64,000 nucleotides of DNA from Cylindrospermum stagnale PCC 7417. GTDB taxonomy: Bacteria; Cyanobacteriota; Cyanobacteriia; Cyanobacteriales; Nostocaceae. Location of the stretch: contig NC_019757.1 in NCBI RefSeq assembly GCF_000317535.1, forward strand, positions 5,421,501 to 5,485,500, given 5' to 3'. Position numbers and translations under genes: made by a program. Below, in pieces: positions 46,129 through 57,801 of this stretch (positions within the stretch are counted from its first letter, which is position 1; the number at the start of each line of letters is the position of its first letter). Below the pieces are notes generated by a model. That model was not told where the DNA came from. It saw only the letters and a program-made list of their open reading frames with translations, and did no database searches.

Positions 46129-47973
46129 TTATATTTTCCATTGCCATTTTTGTTGGTTTTCATCCCATTTTACGGCTACTATTTCGGCTGGAGGATGGAG
46201 ACGATCACCACTTTTATCAAATTGAATAAGCCCCGTGACTCCTTTTAACTGTTTTTTCTTTTCTTTGAAATATTGATTCATGTGTGTAAGTAAAGCTTGG
46301 CTAGCTTGGCTACGATATTCTTCTATAACTTTTAAAATTATTAATACTGAATCAAAAGCTGTTGCACTGCGCCATGTTAAGTTTTCTGTTCCCCAAAACT
46401 GAGCGCCTATTTGACAAAAACTCTGTGCTATCAAATTAGAACTCTCGCACCCGTTTTCTTGACTCTGCCAATGCCAAGGAATACAAGCTATAATTGTGCG
46501 GTTATTTTGATTTGTGGCATTACACGGGTTTTGCTCATGAATCCAATGTAAAACATTATCATGATAAAAAGTTGCCGAGCCAGCTATTAAACAGTTATTG
46601 AGATTTAATCGGCTAATTAGCCCAGCATTATCGAGGGAATTCGGTTCAATTCCTCCATCGGGAATTATGATGATAATATCAACGTTATCTTCTCTAATAT
46701 TTTCTATATATTTTTGGACTTGATAATAATTTTCACTAATATAATTACATTCTTCTAGGAAAACAAATTTATCTTGATGTTGTTCTAGATATTTTTTAAT
46801 ACTGTTTCTGTAGGAAATACTGTAACTACTATTTTGATTATAGATAACAGCTACTTTTTGGGGAGGTTTGTTGGAAACTTTTTCTATCAAATAATTAGCA
46901 AGTTTTTTAGCATTGATATTATCTGGGGTAGTCAATCTAAAAAAAGATAAACTCTCACCTATAGATAATTCGGAAAGTTCATTAGATGTACTACTAGAAT
47001 TTACTAAAGTTAACCCTTTTTGCGTATAGAAGTGCAGTGCATTTTTGGTCATTTCGCTTGAGTAATGACCGATGATAGCAATCAGGTTTAATTGCGGTGC
47101 TAAGTCGGCTAACTTTTCTGCTGTTTGGTTATAGGGTGTGTATAAATTATTAGGATCATTAACAACTAGAATTTGTAAGGCTATTTGACTACATATCAAG
47201 GTCAAGAAGATATTAGGTCTGATATCATCTAAATTTATCTCTGTCCCTAAAGAAATTTTGTCAAAGCTTGGCAGATTAACTTGTAATTGTATTTGAGAAA
47301 TTCCTCGTAAAATCTCGGCAGCAACGTGACCTTGATTATGATAAAATGGGACAACTACAGCTAGAGTATAAATTTTTATACCTTTTCCTTGTAAAAAAGA
47401 TTTCTTATATTCAATTAAGCAGTTATTAATGTAGATTAATACTTCTGGATTACCAATGCCATAAATCTTTAGTTCTTGATTCCAAGCTATTAAAAAACAT
47501 TGAAATGCTTGGTAGTAAAGCCCTTGTTGATAAAAATTTGTTCCTTCAATCTGATATTTAACGATTTCTTGATTAGGTGGATAAAGAAAAATTTGTCTCC
47601 CAAAACTTCCTTGAAAGTTATCACTATTTAATTGAGGCGCAGGATTTAACTTATAACCTTTCTCTGGGTCGAGTAAAAAGTTAATAATTTTCACCCAATT
47701 GCCAGCTATCTCCTCTTGTTCAACGCGCATTAGATCTGAGAGTCTCGGATAAATGTTATTAGTTAATCGGTCTCTAACTTTTTGGTCAGGTAATTTGAAT
47801 ATATTAGCTATTTGTTGTCGAGACAATCCCAATAAAGAGTGACAAATAATTAGTCTATCTAGTTCACTGAGTTTCTTTCTATTAGCGATAGCAGCAATAG
47901 AATCTAAATCATGTAATAAAAGTTCAATGTTAATAGCTAGCTTTTCTATAACTTGCCGACAATGTTGACACAT
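46129..47973 (-). CDS. HTH domain fused to a periplasmic-binding-protein-fold ligand sensor
   Basis: 614 residues, no signal peptide and no membrane segment. Residues about 30-80 (LDRLIICHSLLGLSRQQIANIFKLPDQKVRDRLTNN in part) look like a sigma-region-4/LuxR type helix-turn-helix. A helical linker follows. From about 205 to the end is a type I periplasmic binding protein fold of the branched-chain amino acid class (LAVVVPFYHN, then IIGHYSSEMTKNAL, FFRLTTPDN, KVAVIYNQNSSYS). The receptor fold is thus cytoplasmic and tied to a DNA- or partner-binding domain. The ligand and target genes are unknown. It stands alone. Confidence 0.75.
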   Translation of the reverse strand: MCQHCRQVIEKLAINIELLLHDLDSIAAIANRKKLSELDRLIICHSLLGLSRQQIANIFKLPDQKVRDRLTNNIYPRLSDLMRVEQEEIAGNWVKIINFLLDPEKGYKLNPAPQLNSDNFQGSFGRQIFLYPPNQEIVKYQIEGTNFYQQGLYYQAFQCFLIAWNQELKIYGIGNPEVLIYINNCLIEYKKSFLQGKGIKIYTLAVVVPFYHNQGHVAAEILRGISQIQLQVNLPSFDKISLGTEINLDDIRPNIFLTLICSQIALQILVVNDPNNLYTPYNQTAEKLADLAPQLNLIAIIGHYSSEMTKNALHFYTQKGLTLVNSSSTSNELSELSIGESLSFFRLTTPDNINAKKLANYLIEKVSNKPPQKVAVIYNQNSSYSISYRNSIKKYLEQHQDKFVFLEECNYISENYYQVQKYIENIREDNVDIIIIIPDGGIEPNSLDNAGLISRLNLNNCLIAGSATFYHDNVLHWIHEQNPCNATNQNNRTIIACIPWHWQSQENGCESSNLIAQSFCQIGAQFWGTENLTWRSATAFDSVLIILKVIEEYRSQASQALLTHMNQYFKEKKKQLKGVTGLIQFDKSGDRLHPPAEIVAVKWDENQQKWQWKI

Positions 47974-48343: not shown

Positions 48344-49405
48344 TCATAACCTCGGCTCAAATTTTAGGTAAGTTCCTCCCAAACCTTCAACAATTGTTCG
48401 TGTATTGGCCGCCATCATTTTTTGATAGGTTTCCCCATCGCTTCCGGGTTTACCTAATCCATCAGTATAAAGTTCCCTTTTTGAAACTCTCACTTCTGCT
48501 TTTGTGGCTATAGACTCAATCAGATCGGGGTTAATTGTTGTTTTGGCAAAAATTGTCGGCACTTGAGCCTTTTGAATATTTTCAACTAAATCTCTCTCTC
48601 GTATATCTGTTAGTTTTGCGTTGGTGTTAACAGCTTTTAAAGTTCCTGCATAAGCAAGACCATAAGCTTTGACATAATAACCCAGTGCATTATCGGTTGT
48701 AACTAATGTGCGCTGCTTGTCGGGAATACTGGCAATTCTCAACTTGATCCAGCTATCTAGTTGGGTTAGTTCATTGGTAATTTGTTTGCTCTTACTACGA
48801 TAATTTTTAGCATTACTGGGTGCTAATTTTCCCAGATTGCGATTAATTACTTCTACCATTCTGATAGTATTTTTGGCATTATGCCAAAGATGAGGATCGG
48901 CGACTTTCTTGCCTTTTTTTAGAACTTTTTGTGGCTGAGGCACTGCAAGTTGACCAACGGCTATTTTGGGCGCAGGGTTTTTAGTCGCTTTAATTATTTT
49001 GAGCAAACTTGGTTCAAAATTATAGCCACTATAAAAAATAAGTTTAGCTTGCTCAATGGCTTTGCGGTCTTCTGGTTTTGGTTGATAAGTGTGGGGGTTT
49101 GCACCAGCGGAAATTAAGCAGGTGAGGTTAATTGTATTCCCCGCAACCTGTTTGGTTAAGTCACATAGCACGCTGCTAGTTGCCACAACTTGGGGAAGAT
49201 TTTTGTTCACCTTAGTGGGCTGAGTAGCCTGGGTGACGGAGGTATTTACTACTTGATTTCCACAGCCAACAAATCCAAATGTGAGTGCCAAAAGGGTGGC
49301 GCGTAAGAAGTTGTTTAGCGCCCCTGTCTTGAGGCATGGGGTGAATCTAAAATCCAAAATTGAGTGGCGGGAATTACCAGTAATTAAGCGGGCACTATCT
49401 TTCAC
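48344..49405 (-). CDS. Metal-binding lipoprotein of an ABC transporter (ZnuA/MntC family), orphan
   Basis: 353 residues. Lipobox-like FGFVGC (Cys48) after a hydrophobic stretch. Cluster A-I fold motifs: GANPHTYQP (His105), DPHLWHNAKNT (His172), VTTDNALGYY (Asp238 at the usual His/Glu ligand place) and LYTDGLG (Asp315), ending GSDGETYQKMMAANTRTIVEGLGG. The His-rich loop of typical ZnuA is replaced by a Lys-rich stretch before DPHLW. The inferred His-His-Asp-Asp set is unusual, so zinc versus manganese is open. No permease or ATPase gene adjoins it. Confidence 0.82.
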   Translation of the reverse strand: MKDSARLITGNSRHSILDFRFTPCLKTGALNNFLRATLLALTFGFVGCGNQVVNTSVTQATQPTKVNKNLPQVVATSSVLCDLTKQVAGNTINLTCLISAGANPHTYQPKPEDRKAIEQAKLIFYSGYNFEPSLLKIIKATKNPAPKIAVGQLAVPQPQKVLKKGKKVADPHLWHNAKNTIRMVEVINRNLGKLAPSNAKNYRSKSKQITNELTQLDSWIKLRIASIPDKQRTLVTTDNALGYYVKAYGLAYAGTLKAVNTNAKLTDIRERDLVENIQKAQVPTIFAKTTINPDLIESIATKAEVRVSKRELYTDGLGKPGSDGETYQKMMAANTRTIVEGLGGTYLKFEPRL

Positions 49406-49483: not shown

Positions 49484-49756
49484 TTAAAAGTCAACAACAG
49501 GTAATTTACCTTGCAGCATCTGAAATTTAGACTGAACGCAGCTACCACAATTGCAACCAAGTTGATCAATTATTGTATTTGTTGCTTGAGTCAACTTTGG
49601 TGTTGCCAATTGGGAAATTGGTTGTGCAGATACTACTGCAATCATTTGTGTAGTAGGTGCAGATTTCAGGCTGAATGCATGGGACGGATTGACCACCAGT
49701 AGCATAGATGCCAGAAATGCCGGACAAGCAAGCAAAATTAGTTTGGCTATGTTCAT
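49484..49756 (-). CDS. Small exported protein with C-terminal CxCxxC motif
   Basis: 90 residues. Signal peptide 1-27 (MNIAKLILLACPAFLASMLL, cleavage near SHA-FS). The mature part is short and Thr/Gln-rich, with a C-terminal LGCNCGSCVQSKFQMLQG segment. The three close cysteines suggest metal or thiol chemistry. The protein at 54609-54971 has the same layout with FGCDCPPCLNAVRKMRG. No named family recognised. It lies directly upstream of the metal-binding lipoprotein gene. Confidence 0.7.
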   Translation of the reverse strand: MNIAKLILLACPAFLASMLLVVNPSHAFSLKSAPTTQMIAVVSAQPISQLATPKLTQATNTIIDQLGCNCGSCVQSKFQMLQGKLPVVDF

Positions 49757-51099: not shown

Positions 51100-52071
51100 T
51101 TAAGCTAGACAGGCGAGAAAATCTTGCTTGAGTTGGGCTTCATCCAGATTGCGACCGATGAAAACTAATTCATTTTTCCGGGTTTCGCTGTCTTTCCAAG
51201 GGCGATCTGGTTTACCATCAAATATCATGTGTACTCCTTGAAAGACAAAGCGATTATCTTCGCCGGCGATGTTCAAAATGCCTTTCATGCGGAAGATATC
51301 TGGCCCTTGGGTACGCAGTAACTCGCCAATCCAATCGTTTAATTTTTCCCCATCTAATGCGCCTTTTTCGACTAAAGCTACAGAAAAGACGCTTTCGTCA
51401 TGTACGTGGGCATCTTCTCCTAAGAAGTTTGGATCAATTTCCAAAGCACGGTCTAAATCAAAGGCTTTGACGCCTAACAAAGCATCCATTGCTAGTTCAG
51501 AATTGTGGGTGCGGTAGATTTTAGCGATCGCATTCATCGCCCGAATCCGTTTTTCTAATTCTTCTAAAACTTCTGGCGTGACTAAATCTGTTTTATTTAG
51601 TAAAATCACATCGGCAAAGGCAATCTGCTCTTGTGCTTCGTCTGCTTCCCAATGTTGCCAGATATGCTTGGCATCCACCACCGTGACTACTGCATCGAGA
51701 GACATTTTATTTTGCAAATCTTCATCTACAAAAAACGACTGAATCACAGGGGCAGGGTCAGCTAGTCCAGTCGTTTCAATTACTAAATGGTCAAATTTAT
51801 CACGCCGCTTCATCAAGTTGCCAATGATCCGAATCAAGTCGCCCCGTACTGTACAGCAGATGCAGCCGTTATTCATTTCAAAGATTTCTTCGTCCGCATC
51901 AATAACTAGTTGATTATCAATGCCCACTTCCCCAAATTCATTAACGATCACAGCAACTTTTTTGCCGTGTTCGTAAGTGAGAATGTGATTGAGTAGGGTT
52001 GTTTTGCCTGCTCCTAAATAGCCAGTTAAAACGGTTACAGGTACTGAATTCGATGTTTCCGCAGCAATCAT
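51100..52071 (-). CDS. COG0523 (CobW/ZNG1-type) zinc metallochaperone GTPase
   Basis: 323 residues. Walker A GYLGAGKTT starts at residue 17, the metal motif GCICC gives Cys70, Cys72 and Cys73, Walker B-like ETTGLADP is at 99-106, and the guanine motif NKTD is at 159-162. A His/Asp stretch DAHVHDE lies near 215, and the CobW C-terminal domain ends FIGRNLDEAQLKQDF. Family members use GTP to deliver zinc to client enzymes when zinc is scarce. A Zur-like box 17-31 bases upstream of the start supports that role. Confidence 0.92.
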   Translation of the reverse strand: MIAAETSNSVPVTVLTGYLGAGKTTLLNHILTYEHGKKVAVIVNEFGEVGIDNQLVIDADEEIFEMNNGCICCTVRGDLIRIIGNLMKRRDKFDHLVIETTGLADPAPVIQSFFVDEDLQNKMSLDAVVTVVDAKHIWQHWEADEAQEQIAFADVILLNKTDLVTPEVLEELEKRIRAMNAIAKIYRTHNSELAMDALLGVKAFDLDRALEIDPNFLGEDAHVHDESVFSVALVEKGALDGEKLNDWIGELLRTQGPDIFRMKGILNIAGEDNRFVFQGVHMIFDGKPDRPWKDSETRKNELVFIGRNLDEAQLKQDFLACLA

Positions 52072-52087: not shown

Positions 52088-52102
52088 TGATAATCATTAT
52101 CT
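52088..52102. promoter_or_regulatory. Zur (FurB) box upstream of the COG0523 gene
   Basis: TGATAATCATTATCT is a near-perfect 7-1-7 inverted repeat matching the AT-rich box bound by cyanobacterial Zur. It sits between the stop of the alpha/beta hydrolase gene and the COG0523 start, so repression by zinc-loaded Zur is likely. The related Fur box is similar, so a Fur site cannot be excluded by eye. Confidence 0.75.
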
Positions 52103-52104
52103 GC

Positions 52105-53088
52105 CTATGATAACCCTTTTAAAAAAGGCAGTATTGCTTCTGCCAAAACATCTGGATATTCTTCATGCAGTCCTAAGGAACCAGGAATCACGACACTGCT
52201 AACATTTGGTAACGCTGCTAAGGCATCCATCTCTAGCCGTGATTTGGGGGGGCTGGATTCCCCAATGATGACTTTTAGGGGGATAGATAGCGATGGGCTT
52301 CGCCCCGCCGTAGGCGATGGGCTACGCCCCGCTGGAAGTGATGGGCTACGCCCCGCTGGAAGCGATCGCACAAGTGTGAGAAACTCGGATTGGTCGCGGA
52401 CAGGATCAATATTGCCTGTGACAAAGGCAGCAGAACCGAATCTCGCTCCCGGTATTTGCGTTGTTTGCCATTTCTGTTTGATGAAACTGGGTGTGAGTTT
52501 AGTCGCATCGGTGAAGACGTGGCGACCGTACATAAAACTTAAGAAAGAGGGGGAGGTGTTGAGTTGATAGATTGCTTGACCGAGAAGTGGCGATCGCACC
52601 AATCCCCTCACCATACCAGCTATCTGTTGACTTGCGCCCATTGTCGGCAAAGGGCCGCGCCAAGTGGGGGCCGCTAACACAATCCGTGAAAATACATCTG
52701 GTTGCCTAAAAGCTAGCTGCAACACATAACCAGCCGCATGACCAGCAGCGACCACGCTAATGGGCATTTTAAACGCAAATCTGACGAAATCCGCCAAAAA
52801 TTGGTGATATAAAGCTGGTTTATAATCTAAATTCGCTCGGTCAGATTCCCCAAAACCCGGCCAATCTACGGCGACAACTTGAAAATGGGGAGCTAGTAAT
52901 TTAGCGAGTTCACCCATTTCTAATCGTGAGGAAACGGTGCTGAAAGCTGGGAGGAGCAATAGTGGAGAACCTTGGCCAAGGGTTTCATAAATCACACCCA
53001 ATTCCTGATTTTCCCAATTCCAGAGATATTCTTCAATTACGCCCCCAAAGCCGGTACTAGCAGGGACATTTAAAAATCTTGTAGACAT
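52105..53088 (-). CDS. Alpha/beta hydrolase fold protein lacking the nucleophile Ser
   Basis: 327 residues. The fold is clear (SPLLLLPAFSTVSS, then VVAVDWPGFGESDR as the oxyanion/strand 4 region, and late LHEEYPDVLAEAI with the candidate catalytic His). The nucleophile elbow, however, reads AAGHAAGYV, so the expected GxSxG serine is Ala. Residues about 240-265 (LPAGRSPSLPAGRSPSPTAG) are encoded by three 24-bp repeats at 52292-52363 ending next to a HIP1 site. It may be a non-hydrolytic or pseudoenzyme member. The downstream neighbour is the COG0523 gene. Confidence 0.8.
   Translation of the reverse strand: MSTRFLNVPASTGFGGVIEEYLWNWENQELGVIYETLGQGSPLLLLPAFSTVSSRLEMGELAKLLAPHFQVVAVDWPGFGESDRANLDYKPALYHQFLADFVRFAFKMPISVVAAGHAAGYVLQLAFRQPDVFSRIVLAAPTWRGPLPTMGASQQIAGMVRGLVRSPLLGQAIYQLNTSPSFLSFMYGRHVFTDATKLTPSFIKQKWQTTQIPGARFGSAAFVTGNIDPVRDQSEFLTLVRSLPAGRSPSLPAGRSPSPTAGRSPSLSIPLKVIIGESSPPKSRLEMDALAALPNVSSVVIPGSLGLHEEYPDVLAEAILPFLKGLS
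52292..52363. repeat. Three tandem 24-bp repeats inside the alpha/beta hydrolase gene
   Basis: Units beginning GATGGGCTACGCCCCGC follow one another at 52292, 52316 and 52340. They keep the reading frame (8 residues each, RSPSLPAG). A relative of the first unit is at 62240-62271. Confidence 0.9.
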
Positions 53089-54608: not shown

Positions 54609-54971
54609 TTAAACTGGCATCGGTGCTAAACCGCGCATCTTACGCACGGCATTGAGGCAGGGTGGGCAATCACAGCCAAACAAATTGATAGCCTCATTAC
54701 TCTCTTCCTCAGTAAATTCTAGTTCAGCAATCTCATTTGGTTGAACTAGGGCAACTTGTACCTCTGCTTTAGCTGGAGAGGGAGCAGAATTACTCACCCG
54801 TATACATACCTTGCCAGCATTTGCTCTGTGGGGGGAACGGGCACAGGAAAGATGAGTGCCAGCAGGGTTTATTTCACTAGCATGAACTGGTCTAGCCATC
54901 ATCACCATAGACAGCATAGACATAAATACTACGGGGCTGGAAAGCAAGGCCAAGATAAATTTTCTGTTCAT
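54609..54971 (-). CDS. Small exported protein with C-terminal CxCxxC motif (second)
   Basis: 120 residues. Signal peptide 1-31 (hydrophobic LALLSSPVVFMSMLSMVMMA, cleavage near VHA-SE). The mature region has two Cys (LSCARSPH and KVCIRVSN), an acidic stretch ELEFTEEESNEA, and the C-terminal LFGCDCPPCLNAVRKMRG. The GCxCxxC tail matches the protein at 49484-49756, so the two look like one unnamed family of periplasmic or lumenal proteins. Possible metal binding; no function known to me. Confidence 0.7.
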   Translation of the reverse strand: MNRKFILALLSSPVVFMSMLSMVMMARPVHASEINPAGTHLSCARSPHRANAGKVCIRVSNSAPSPAKAEVQVALVQPNEIAELEFTEEESNEAINLFGCDCPPCLNAVRKMRGLAPMPV

Positions 54972-55252: not shown

Positions 55253-56002
55253 CTAGGATAAAACTGCTTTAACTGACTTTCCCTGAAATCCTTTACCGAC
55301 ACCATAGCGAACAGTTTGGAATTCCACAAAATTTGTGTCTGGAGTGTAGAGAGTATAAATCGCTTCCCCCAATTTTCGCCCCACATTACCCACACCGATA
55401 ACTTGACGCGACGAAATTTCTACAGTTTCGGGAGATGCTGGACTATCAAGAGTTGTCACCCCCGTACTTATAGAACCTGCTTGCAGTTGATATTGAAACG
55501 CCAAACCAGAACGACCACAAAACAAGTTATTAACTTGCATCCGCGACAAACGGTCAAGCATTTGGATAGGAGGAGTTGCCGGCGTCAGTTCTTCATCAAC
55601 AGATACCGTTGAACCGTGAATTAACAAACAATCCAGTTCAGAAAAACCAAAGTCTAAATTTCTCAACCATTGTACAGTCGGACGAGAAACAAAATCCCAC
55701 AGCAACTTAACTGTGTCTCCCCCATATTTGGCTAATAACTCAGTAGCTTCCCCAGTCATCCCCAAACCATGCAAAATCAAACACTGTTCTTCCCACCAAC
55801 CCTTACAAATCAGCGGTTCTAACTCACCAGGTTGAGGGTTTTGCAACCGTTCCACCAATTTCTCAGCTTCTTCTCTTGGACCCACCAAATCGCCCAGAAT
55901 ATACAAAGCCTCTACATCACCTTGACGCTTAATATCAGCCAACACAGCTTCATAAGCCGCCAAATTACCCTCAATTCCGCTCAAAATCGCCCATTTATTC
56001 AT
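55253..56002 (-). CDS. Degenerate calcineurin-like phosphoesterase (probable pseudoenzyme)
   Basis: 249 residues. It aligns with the neighbouring phosphatase (56194-57006) over the whole fold, but the metal ligands are changed: first motif LSGIEGN instead of SDIHGN (Asp to Gly9, His to Glu11), KGWWEEQ instead of GNxxE/D, and FCGRSGL instead of CGHTH. LGDLVG (Asp38) and LIHGS are kept. Hydrolytic activity is unlikely; a binding or regulatory role is more plausible. It is the last gene of the putative Zur operon, after a 54-bp duplicated repeat. Confidence 0.78.
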   Translation of the reverse strand: MNKWAILSGIEGNLAAYEAVLADIKRQGDVEALYILGDLVGPREEAEKLVERLQNPQPGELEPLICKGWWEEQCLILHGLGMTGEATELLAKYGGDTVKLLWDFVSRPTVQWLRNLDFGFSELDCLLIHGSTVSVDEELTPATPPIQMLDRLSRMQVNNLFCGRSGLAFQYQLQAGSISTGVTTLDSPASPETVEISSRQVIGVGNVGRKLGEAIYTLYTPDTNFVEFQTVRYGVGKGFQGKSVKAVLS

Positions 56003-56028
56003 TTTTTCTCTGCGCTTTCTGCGTCTGA

Positions 56029-56150
56029 AGCAGTTAAAAAAAGCTCGTAGTCAGGACTTCAGTCCTTTCCCTATTTAGATTGAGCAGTTAAGAAAAGCTC
56101 GTAGTCAGGACTTCAGTCCTTTCCCTATTTAGATTGAGCGATAAATCGCT
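56029..56150. repeat. Direct duplication of a 54-bp unit between the two phosphatase genes
   Basis: The segment GCAGTTAA(A/G)AAAAGCTC, then GTAGTCAGGACTTCAGTCCT and TTTCCCTATTTAGATTGAGC, occurs twice in tandem with a 54-base period. Each copy holds the small palindrome AGGACTTCAGTCCT-like hairpin. A GATAAATCGCTCACTAC end follows the second copy. Confidence 0.85.
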
Positions 56151-56193
56151 CACTACAAACAAAATCTTGATTTTACATTTAATTAATCTCTAC

Positions 56194-57006
56194 CTACTTA
56201 GTACAAACATGAGTTGGGTCATCAGCCCGTTCTGCATATTCCAAACCTTGGGACAAACGCCAAGCAAAAATTGCAGGTAAACCCTGTTCGATAATTGCTG
56301 CACAGGTTTTCTGATAGTTGTAAGGCACTTCTCGCAACTTCACGGCTTGATTATCTGTGTCGTAAATTACATAAGTGGCATTTGGTCGCCCATGCCGTGG
56401 TTCACCCACCGAACCCACATTGATAATCTGCTTCAGAGGTGTATTAAAGTTTATTTTCTGTTCTTCTATACCCTCACCTTTAACACGAACTTGCAAACTA
56501 CCTGCATCCAAGTTACGCACATAAGGCACATGGGTATGACCACAAAAAAGCACATCTGCATCTGTAGAAAGTACTCGCTCTAAGGCGGCAAAAGCATCGA
56601 GTTCAGGTAATAAATACTCGTGGTTGCTGTGGGGACTTCCGTGGACAAAAGCTAAATTTCCCTCATGCAAACTATGGGGTAATTGGGCCAGAAATTCGCG
56701 GTTTTCTGGATTAATTTGGTTATTTGTCCATTCGTGGGCTATTTTGCCGCGTTTCTCAGCTAATAACGAGGGATAACTGCAATCGCAAGCATTCAGTCCC
56801 TCAACGATATCTTCATCCCAACAGCCGACGCAGGTGGGGATATTTAGGGAACGAATTTTTGTCACTACGGCATTTGGATGTGGCCCATATCCGACTAAAT
56901 CGCCTAGACAAAAGATTTTTTCAGCTTTTTCTTGGTCGATATCTAATAAAACTGCATCCAAGGCTTCAGAGTTGCCATGAATACACGACATCACAGCGAT
57001 TTTCAC
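56194..57006 (-). CDS. Calcineurin-like metallophosphoesterase with Cys at two metal-ligand positions
   Basis: 270 residues of the YfcE/diadenosine-polyphosphatase-like class. Motifs: MSCIHGN (Cys8 where Asp is normal, His10), CLGDLVGYGPHP (Asp36), VGCWDED (Cys62 where Asn is normal), FVHGSPH (His122), CGHTHVP (His157, His159). The C-terminal region ends with YERADDPTHVCTK-like Cys. The Cys substitutions suggest a different metal, perhaps zinc. It overlaps the end of the P-loop gene by four bases, so it is co-translated with it under the Zur-like box. Confidence 0.85.
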   Translation of the reverse strand: MKIAVMSCIHGNSEALDAVLLDIDQEKAEKIFCLGDLVGYGPHPNAVVTKIRSLNIPTCVGCWDEDIVEGLNACDCSYPSLLAEKRGKIAHEWTNNQINPENREFLAQLPHSLHEGNLAFVHGSPHSNHEYLLPELDAFAALERVLSTDADVLFCGHTHVPYVRNLDAGSLQVRVKGEGIEEQKINFNTPLKQIINVGSVGEPRHGRPNATYVIYDTDNQAVKLREVPYNYQKTCAAIIEQGLPAIFAWRLSQGLEYAERADDPTHVCTK

Positions 57007-57779
57007 TCTATGGGTTCCTCCATCAGAATTTGTTTGACTTGTTCTTGGTATTGTTTAATGGCTGCTTCTGACAAATAGCAATCTTGTAAGGTTTGTTTAA
57101 TTGCAGATTCATCTAGGTTTTGCCCCCACACTTCTATACCACTAAAACGCTGTGGTCTGCCTTCTAAATGGCGTGGTAGGTCTAATTCTAAAAAATCGGT
57201 GGCTGGTACTCCGGCGACAAAATCACCGTAAATTGCCCGTCCGTCGGCGACTTCAAAAATACCTTTAGCACGGCTAACTTGACCGTAAGCGCCTTGGGTG
57301 ATTTCATACCAAAACTCTTGTAAACTGTCTTCGTCGCAGACTTGACTGCTGGTTATCCCCCGCCAAACTTGGTTTTGGGCAATGCTGGTGTCAATATCTG
57401 CACCTGGGACAATTTTTTCTGCCCAAGGATGATATTCAGAATTTTTGAGGTGTGGTGGCAGAATTGCGATCGCACGATAAGGTAAATTATCTAATATTTG
57501 CTGGATTACTCCTAATTCTAAGTAAAACCCTAGTTCAATATAAGTATTCTCTGCTGCTGCTAGCTGGTTGAAAAACTCCCTTTCTTGCCCATCACCAAAA
57601 ACTTTCACCTCAGGAAATTCCGCAGCTAGGCGCGTTTGGTCAATGGGAACAGTGCCAGTACCTGGACTGAAATAAATTATATTTTCCACAACGGCGTTTT
57701 TTGGCAACTCTTGGCAAATCCAAGTGGTTTTTCCGCAGCCAGCCGGGCCAGCAACAACGGTAATTATTGGTATAGTCAT
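57003..57779 (-). CDS. Divergent CobW-like P-loop protein without CxCC
   Basis: 258 residues from ATG 57779; upstream in-frame ATGs are rejected because they would translate the Zur-like box. Walker A GPAGCGKTT begins at residue 11. There is no GCxCC metal motif and no NKxD guanine motif. The C-terminal RFSGIEVWGQNLDESAIKQT resembles the CobW C-terminal end of the COG0523 protein at 51100-52071 (FIGRNLDEAQLKQDF). So it appears to be a distant COG0523 relative that has lost the metal-transfer cysteines. First gene of a three-gene operon with two phosphatases. Confidence 0.75.
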   Translation of the reverse strand: MTIPIITVVAGPAGCGKTTWICQELPKNAVVENIIYFSPGTGTVPIDQTRLAAEFPEVKVFGDGQEREFFNQLAAAENTYIELGFYLELGVIQQILDNLPYRAIAILPPHLKNSEYHPWAEKIVPGADIDTSIAQNQVWRGITSSQVCDEDSLQEFWYEITQGAYGQVSRAKGIFEVADGRAIYGDFVAGVPATDFLELDLPRHLEGRPQRFSGIEVWGQNLDESAIKQTLQDCYLSEAAIKQYQEQVKQILMEEPIE

Positions 57780-57786
57780 CCTTAAA

Positions 57787-57801
57787 TGATAATCATTTTC
57801 A
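57787..57801. promoter_or_regulatory. Zur (FurB) box before the P-loop/phosphatase operon
   Basis: TGATAATCATTTTCA fits the 7-1-7 cyanobacterial Zur consensus. It lies only 7 bases before the ATG at 57779, so it overlaps the ribosome-binding region and suggests a very short leader. Same core (TGATAATCATT) as the box at 52088-52102. Confidence 0.75.

Follow-up and report, generated by a model that had tools for sequence, protein, structure and literature searches.

The window analyzed here, a stretch of 64,000 nucleotides of the Cylindrospermum stagnale PCC 7417 genome (contig NC_019757.1, positions 5,421,501 to 5,485,500), carries at 55253–57779 three genes of the minus strand in the order PL, MPP1 and MPP2 (Table 1). 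PL encodes a P-loop protein similar to COG0523 GTPases, and MPP1 and MPP2 encode two paralogous proteins of the metallophosphoesterase type. The stop codon of PL (57003–57005) and the GTG start codon of MPP1 (57006–57004) overlap by four bases, and MPP2 follows on the same strand after a gap of 191 bp, in agreement with an earlier note on this DNA, made by a model from the letters alone, that had described this arrangement. A 54-nucleotide direct repeat in two copies with 98% identity (56029–56136) lies within the MPP1–MPP2 gap.

Table 1 Coordinates of the three genes, the associated box and the context features in the window
Feature	Position	Strand	Remarks
Zur-type 7-1-7 operator (putative)	57787..57801	.	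7 bases 5' of PL; recurs in relatives
PL: P-loop protein, 258 aa, Walker A, CobW_C, no CxCC, no NKxD	57003..57779	-	
MPP1: calcineurin-like fold, 270 aa, GTG start; C8, C62, W63, C74xC76	56194..57006	-	
MPP2: degenerate paralogue of MPP1 (identity 29%), 249 aa	55253..56002	-	
Context: second Zur-type box	52088..52102	.	16 bases 5' of canonical COG0523 gene
Context: canonical COG0523 GTPase with GCICC	51100..52071	-	Close relative near trio in some other loci
Context: ZnuA/AztC-like zinc-binding protein	48344..49405	-	3' of COG0523 gene

Sequence comparison indicates that PL, MPP1 and MPP2 form a real, conserved and old cyanobacterial operon. PL was found in 18 of the 40 genomes searched, C. 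stagnale included, and it stands directly before MPP1 in all 19 loci found through it in these genomes, our own locus among them; MPP2 is present in 18 of the 19, which are short. A scan of species genomes with the MPP1 alignment gave at least 587 relatives; only the 80 best were retained, and this sample therefore leans towards close relatives. Of these 80 loci, 78 have PL upstream of MPP1 (three of the PL matches are partial), at a distance of 0.3–1.6 kb in a few, and the two loci without it (L105 and L115) lie close to the end of a contig or reach it. MPP2, with an identity threshold of 40%, accompanies 71 of the 80, in some cases 1.4–3.3 kb from MPP1; several of the nine loci that lack it are truncated by contig ends, yet the flanks of L104 and L123 are complete. 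In genomes drawn evenly from the class, MPP1 was detected at E ≤ 1e-60 in 101 of 291 genomes and in 62 of 130 genera, so most of the sampled genomes are without it. From this draw 20 further regions were picked by hand, favouring small and distant genomes (12 are from genomes of 1.7–2.9 Mb belonging to one family); PL precedes MPP1 in every one (in two pieces in L156) and MPP2 is present in 19. Two genomes carry extra matches: G208 has two MPP1 copies on different contigs (L202 and L021), one of them at Dolichospermum DET69 plasmid coordinates, and G192 has three, one with a stop and one partial. No description of the trio turned up among the literature excerpts consulted; no word beginning with phosphatase or phosphoesterase occurs in PMC6103462 or PMC12058595, and the stem metallophos is absent from PMC10957091.

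The box before PL, TGATAATCATTTTCA, has 0 mismatches to the 7-1-7 palindrome pattern and, as the PL ATG is at 57779, lies 7 bases from the start, where the earlier note had placed it. The exact pattern TGATAATNATTNTCA has only two copies in the 7.61-Mb genome, the one in the PL promoter and one inside an open reading frame (ORF) at window position 46721 that looks incidental. Looser matches carry little weight: at three mismatches or fewer the window has 13 against 5.1 expected (one of 100 shuffles was as high), and at two or fewer the genome has 347 + 337 against 273 + 270 for the reversed pattern, a modest surplus. The COG0523 box in Table 1 has one mismatch, as does a third box 6.9 kb past the window end, which is flanked by a divergently oriented porin gene on one side and by znuA, followed by znuC, on the other; the earlier note had missed both. 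The remaining one-mismatch sites listed are mostly inside ORFs or without a recognised gene. The C. stagnale genome has three FUR-family genes.

The box recurs at a fixed place in relatives. It stands exactly 7 bases before PL in all ten of the nearest named loci (L055–L064), scoring 13/14 in nine and 12/14 in L057. For the wider set we took the best match to TGATAATNATTATCA within 200 nucleotides before PL, with 75 of the 80 loci usable (two were dropped for having no PL and three for a partial PL match). A score of at least 12/14 was reached in 44 of the 75, the mean best score of shuffles being 8.8, as against 72 of 612 upstream windows taken from the remaining long ORFs of these loci (Fisher p ~1e-18), control windows that overlap, are not independent and are themselves rich in zinc genes.

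The neighbours of the trio point in the same direction. Within 10 kb on each side of the 80 loci, at E ≤ 1e-10 over half the query and with many contigs cut, we counted COG0523 genes (34), hemB (26), folE (18), znuB (16), znuC (14), znuA (11), hisI (10) and thrS (9); the ATP-binding cassette (ABC) and GTPase families are broad, so that their counts may include other members, and the scoring was confined to trio-linked loci. No neighbour of these kinds was recognised in the 12 small-genome loci except for one weak ABC match. Some genes of the trio neighbourhood belong to replacement-enzyme families (PMC2770081, excerpt).

Expression data that bear on the operon come from Synechococcus PCC 7002, where a zur mutation (by RNA-seq) and TPEN are reported to raise hemB-II, folE-II, G0131 and G0132; for the authors, G0131 encodes a conserved hypothetical protein that contains a methylmalonyl-CoA mutase domain and resembles GTPases (PMC4628125, excerpts). 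We assigned G0129–G0132 by gene order, the record carrying newer locus tags. G0131 matches residues 1–147 of the PL of PCC 7117 at 99.3% and then departs from it, a perfect TGATAATAATTATCA palindrome lies upstream, and the two strains share 99% identity over 765 bp around the start and promoter of PL. By gene order and sequence, G0131 is a truncated remnant of PL. G0129 is an ORF of 111 residues, and the DNA in which it lies corresponds to the final 130 residues of MPP2, again by comparison with PCC 7117; G0130 has no match to the PL, MPP1 or MPP2 of that strain. MPP1 was not found in a 30-kb stretch of PCC 7002, and a search that covered plasmids and not its chromosome gave 26 records with MPP1 at E ≤ 1e-30, none of them from PCC 7002. 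The locus on plasmid pAQ7 (L135, 8717–10488) has the look of a broken trio, with a truncated PL, an MPP2 remnant and an unrelated ORF between them.

Taken together, regulation of the trio by Zur in low zinc is probable and well supported, and for C. stagnale itself it is suggested by analogy with PCC 7002. The conserved linkage of the genes, the box, the zinc-gene neighbours and the induction of G0131 all speak for the zinc-responsive module that the earlier note had proposed.

PL has a CobW C-terminal domain (PF07683, CobW_C; 24 bits, Pfam cut-off 22) and a conserved Walker A motif, in which G14, G16, K17 and T18 are invariant in 16 of 16 sequences and the strict pattern is kept in 65 of 77. 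E82, likewise invariant in 16 of 16, was assigned to Walker B by eye. The CxCC metal motif occurs in none of the 77 sequences and [NT]KxD in a single one, near its C-terminus, which agrees with the earlier description of a CobW-like C-terminus in a protein devoid of both motifs. The best Foldseek matches of PL in the PDB are to E. coli YjiA, its zinc-bound form included.

MPP1 matches PF12850 at 74.6 bits (cut-off 27), and its nearest solved relative both by sequence and by fold is 3rqz (Foldseek E 4.8e-19). We aligned 123 MPP1 rows, 117 of them distinct, from the 80 named loci, the 20 further regions, 22 earlier loci and the window; the metal-ligand and catalytic roles of the motif positions are those that we assume from general knowledge of the metallophosphoesterase fold. 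Motif I reads CxH in 121 rows, with C8 in place of the Asp, and DxH in the other two. Motif III, canonically GNH(D/E), is GCWD throughout, with C62 for the Asn and W63 for the catalytic His. H10, C33, D36, C62, W63, D64, C74, C76, H122, C155, H157, H159 and H205 are invariant in all 123 rows, D36 being the motif II residue and H157 and H159 the histidines of GHTH, and H266 and C268 are present in 122. In the alignment of MPP2 (71 rows: the sequence of the window and 70 others, a short one among the 71 located having been omitted), just D36 (70/71) and H122 (71/71) remain of the seven ligand positions. The other five are lost: position 8 is Gly, 10 is Glu or Gln, 62 is Trp or Phe, 157 is Arg and 159 is Gly, Ser or Ala. 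MPP2 gave no Pfam match at E 0.1.

These losses led us to drop a plain phosphatase pair as the lead reading: MPP1 is without the motif-I Asp, the motif-III Asn and the catalytic His, and only two of the seven ligands persist in MPP2. The earlier note, which had overlooked both the Cys substitutions of MPP1 and the ligand losses of MPP2, had spoken of metal-dependent phosphatases, and this part of it is now doubtful. As judged from its residues, MPP1 is probably no ordinary phosphatase, and the label phosphatase is unsafe.

Searching the C. stagnale genome with an MPP1 profile returned MPP1, MPP2 and one distant phosphatase gene, which we take to be PrpA-like, and no close canonical MPP1 paralogue; four other PF12850 genes exist in the genome. 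MPP2 forms one group in the tree (100/100). No single branch of the best tree sets MPP1 apart from the rest, and one does so in only 10% of bootstrap trees; the Car1-like proteins do not stay together either, and long branches come to lie next to each other. Further CxC proteins devoid of motif-I ligands were found in 3 of the 194 cyanobacterial genomes searched, and a cyanobacterial phosphoesterase-like group (L196 5104–5943, L197 2709–3569 and L198 5272–6225) has GGPYSN for motif I, GNYD and CGCGY.

Outside cyanobacteria, MPP1 has relatives that lie among ars genes. Among the 26 plasmid records, 20 are non-cyanobacterial, at 33–37% identity, and the three of these that were opened all sit among ars genes. 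The Car1-like proteins of the three loci keep D8 and N62, and in each locus the first gene has a CxC that falls on C74/C76 of MPP1 without a gap. Such a protein is reported, in a paper on Paraclostridium, to be ~40% identical to Car1, an As(V) reductase for which Cys74 and Cys76 are essential (PMC12124457, excerpt). The ars region of Mucilaginibacter (L137, 6001–7493) has tandem metallophosphoesterases, the second without CxC, and recalls the MPP1–MPP2 pair.

From what was observed directly, namely sequence, operon, box and residue conservation, we infer a biochemistry for the trio. Our favoured reading, held tentatively and at somewhat below an even chance, combines a Zur-controlled maturation P-loop protein, a Cys-ligated and possibly redox-active metalloprotein and an inactive partner. 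The trio would be a Zur-repressed low-zinc operon. PL, stemming from the COG0523/G3E metallochaperone group, would have lost its own CxCC metal site and the guanine-specificity motif and would be devoted to MPP1, its putative client, whose maturation it would assist in a nucleotide-dependent manner. MPP1 would hold two metals with one thiolate per site, from C8 in place of the motif-I Asp and C62 in place of the motif-III Asn. Given this site and the Car1-like C74-x-C76, MPP1 seems more likely to be a thiol-metal enzyme of redox or transfer type, or a tight metal holder, than a phosphomonoesterase. MPP2 would lack catalytic activity and would partner MPP1, probably in a heterodimer. A more far-reaching version, which we consider rather doubtful, has a metallophosphoesterase fold with its two-metal site rebuilt around a thiolate for each metal. 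When zinc is scarce it would carry out thiol/redox or metal-transfer chemistry; an operon-encoded COG0523-like protein devoid of CxCC would mature it and a dead paralogue would hold it, the whole being a new client–chaperone module kept even in small-genome picocyanobacteria.

Several observations weigh against the favoured reading. The match of PL to YjiA is remote (template modelling score ~0.3; profile E 0.0017), two MPP1 proteins (L101 and L104) keep D8, and the predicted MPP1 model is weak (predicted local distance difference test score of 69.5, below 50 at residues 64–80), so that the CxC loop cannot be placed relative to the metal site. The regulatory part is challenged as well. G0129 and G0130 are not raised in the zur mutant of PCC 7002 in the excerpts of PMC4628125; they read as debris of the broken trio, which would account for the missing induction. 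The Zur regulon of marine Synechococcus WH8102 comprises only eight genes, according to an excerpt of PMC9337993, and if that strain carries the trio, the trio there is not Zur-controlled. A box of 12/14 is missing directly before PL in 31 of the 75 loci, and the best boxes of the 12 small-genome loci are weak (8–11/14). The loci without such a box and the WH8102 data would favour a box that is not a Zur site and a link to zinc genes that is incidental. We regard this as very improbable, since the box recurs at a fixed place and the truncated PL is induced in the zur mutant (PMC4628125, excerpts). Many of these 31 loci have a close upstream ORF on the same strand, and PL could be transcribed there from a longer operon.

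The other alternatives concern what MPP1 does. MPP1 and MPP2 might form a non-catalytic unit that holds and donates zinc, with PL driving its release to clients. The Trp that replaces the catalytic His in both proteins, the Zur context and the many conserved Cys and His residues of MPP1, including C33, C155, H266 and C268, are in keeping with such a unit. D36, H122, H157 and H159 are nonetheless fully conserved in an active-site-like manner, and in a protein that did nothing but bind metal one would probably see more variation; we judge this unlikely. Still less probable, in our estimate, is a zinc-sparing phosphodiesterase or Ap4A-type hydrolase that uses another metal and replaces a zinc enzyme, as the fold neighbours 3rqz and the asymmetric Ap4A hydrolase SapH and the nearby genes of replacement-enzyme families (PMC2770081, excerpt) would suggest. 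The change of the catalytic His to Trp and of two ligands to Cys argues against it, and the idea of a zinc-sparing duplicate of a housekeeping phosphatase is weakened because the profile search found no close canonical paralogue to be replaced in the C. stagnale genome. For the same reason, although four other PF12850 genes are present, the earlier suggestion of a replacement of zinc-dependent steps gains little. The CxC at the Car1 positions (PMC12124457, excerpt) and the ars loci of the three non-cyanobacterial relatives would fit a Car1-type reductase whose substrate is arsenate or some other oxyanion and whose expression is tied to zinc status. To this we give slightly less credence again: Car1-like proteins keep D8 and N62 and MPP1 does not, and the recurring neighbours of the trio are zinc genes, as counted with a query set that held no ars genes.

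Other features of the window lie between the trio and the ZnuA/AztC-like gene. The canonical COG0523 gene is followed on the same strand by a gene whose product we take, from its repeats, to be WD40-like, by a gene for a small CxCxxC protein and by the ZnuA/AztC-like gene. Two small proteins (49484–49756 and 54609–54971) have GC[ND]CxxC near the end and, by eye, a hydrophobic start; they are weakly similar to each other, and relatives of both occur near the trio in L056. A 24-nucleotide repeat in three copies (52290–52361) lies inside an alpha/beta-hydrolase ORF (52105–53088), where it is read as a repeated AGRSPS stretch of the protein.

The roles of COG0523-type proteins in zinc scarcity are largely open because their clients are hard to find. 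In the trio, a single old operon seems to encode both a COG0523-like protein and its putative client, which opens the client question to tests in a few laboratory strains. The exchange of Asp and of Asn for Cys in a two-metal phosphoesterase site, kept across distant cyanobacteria, would also show how this fold leaves phosphate chemistry. The published gene G0131 of PCC 7002 would acquire a new interpretation as a relic of the trio.

Parts of the trio resemble known systems and depart from them. PL shares Walker A, CobW_C and the link to Zur with the COG0523/G3E GTPases (YjiA, CobW and the nitrile hydratase activator), and its best Foldseek matches are to YjiA. Unlike these GTPases, it has neither CxCC nor NKxD, is 65 residues shorter than the canonical member in the window, and has a putative client encoded in its own operon. 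The Zur-linked hemB, folE, thrS and hisI genes of cyanobacteria occur in the same neighbourhoods and with the same type of box as the trio, whereas MPP1 has no close housekeeping counterpart in the C. stagnale genome. SapH (3qfm) and 3rqz are metallophosphoesterases that have their fold and overall sequence in common with MPP1, in which, in contrast, the motif-I Asp and GNH are replaced. Car1 of Rufibacter tibetensis, known to us through an excerpt of PMC12124457, is a metallophosphoesterase with CxC at 74/76, as in MPP1. The identity of MPP1 to the Car1-like plasmid proteins that were compared is 33–38%; MPP1 differs from these proteins by having Cys at the D8 and N62 positions, by its occurrence in zinc-gene loci and by its pairing with PL and a degenerate paralogue.

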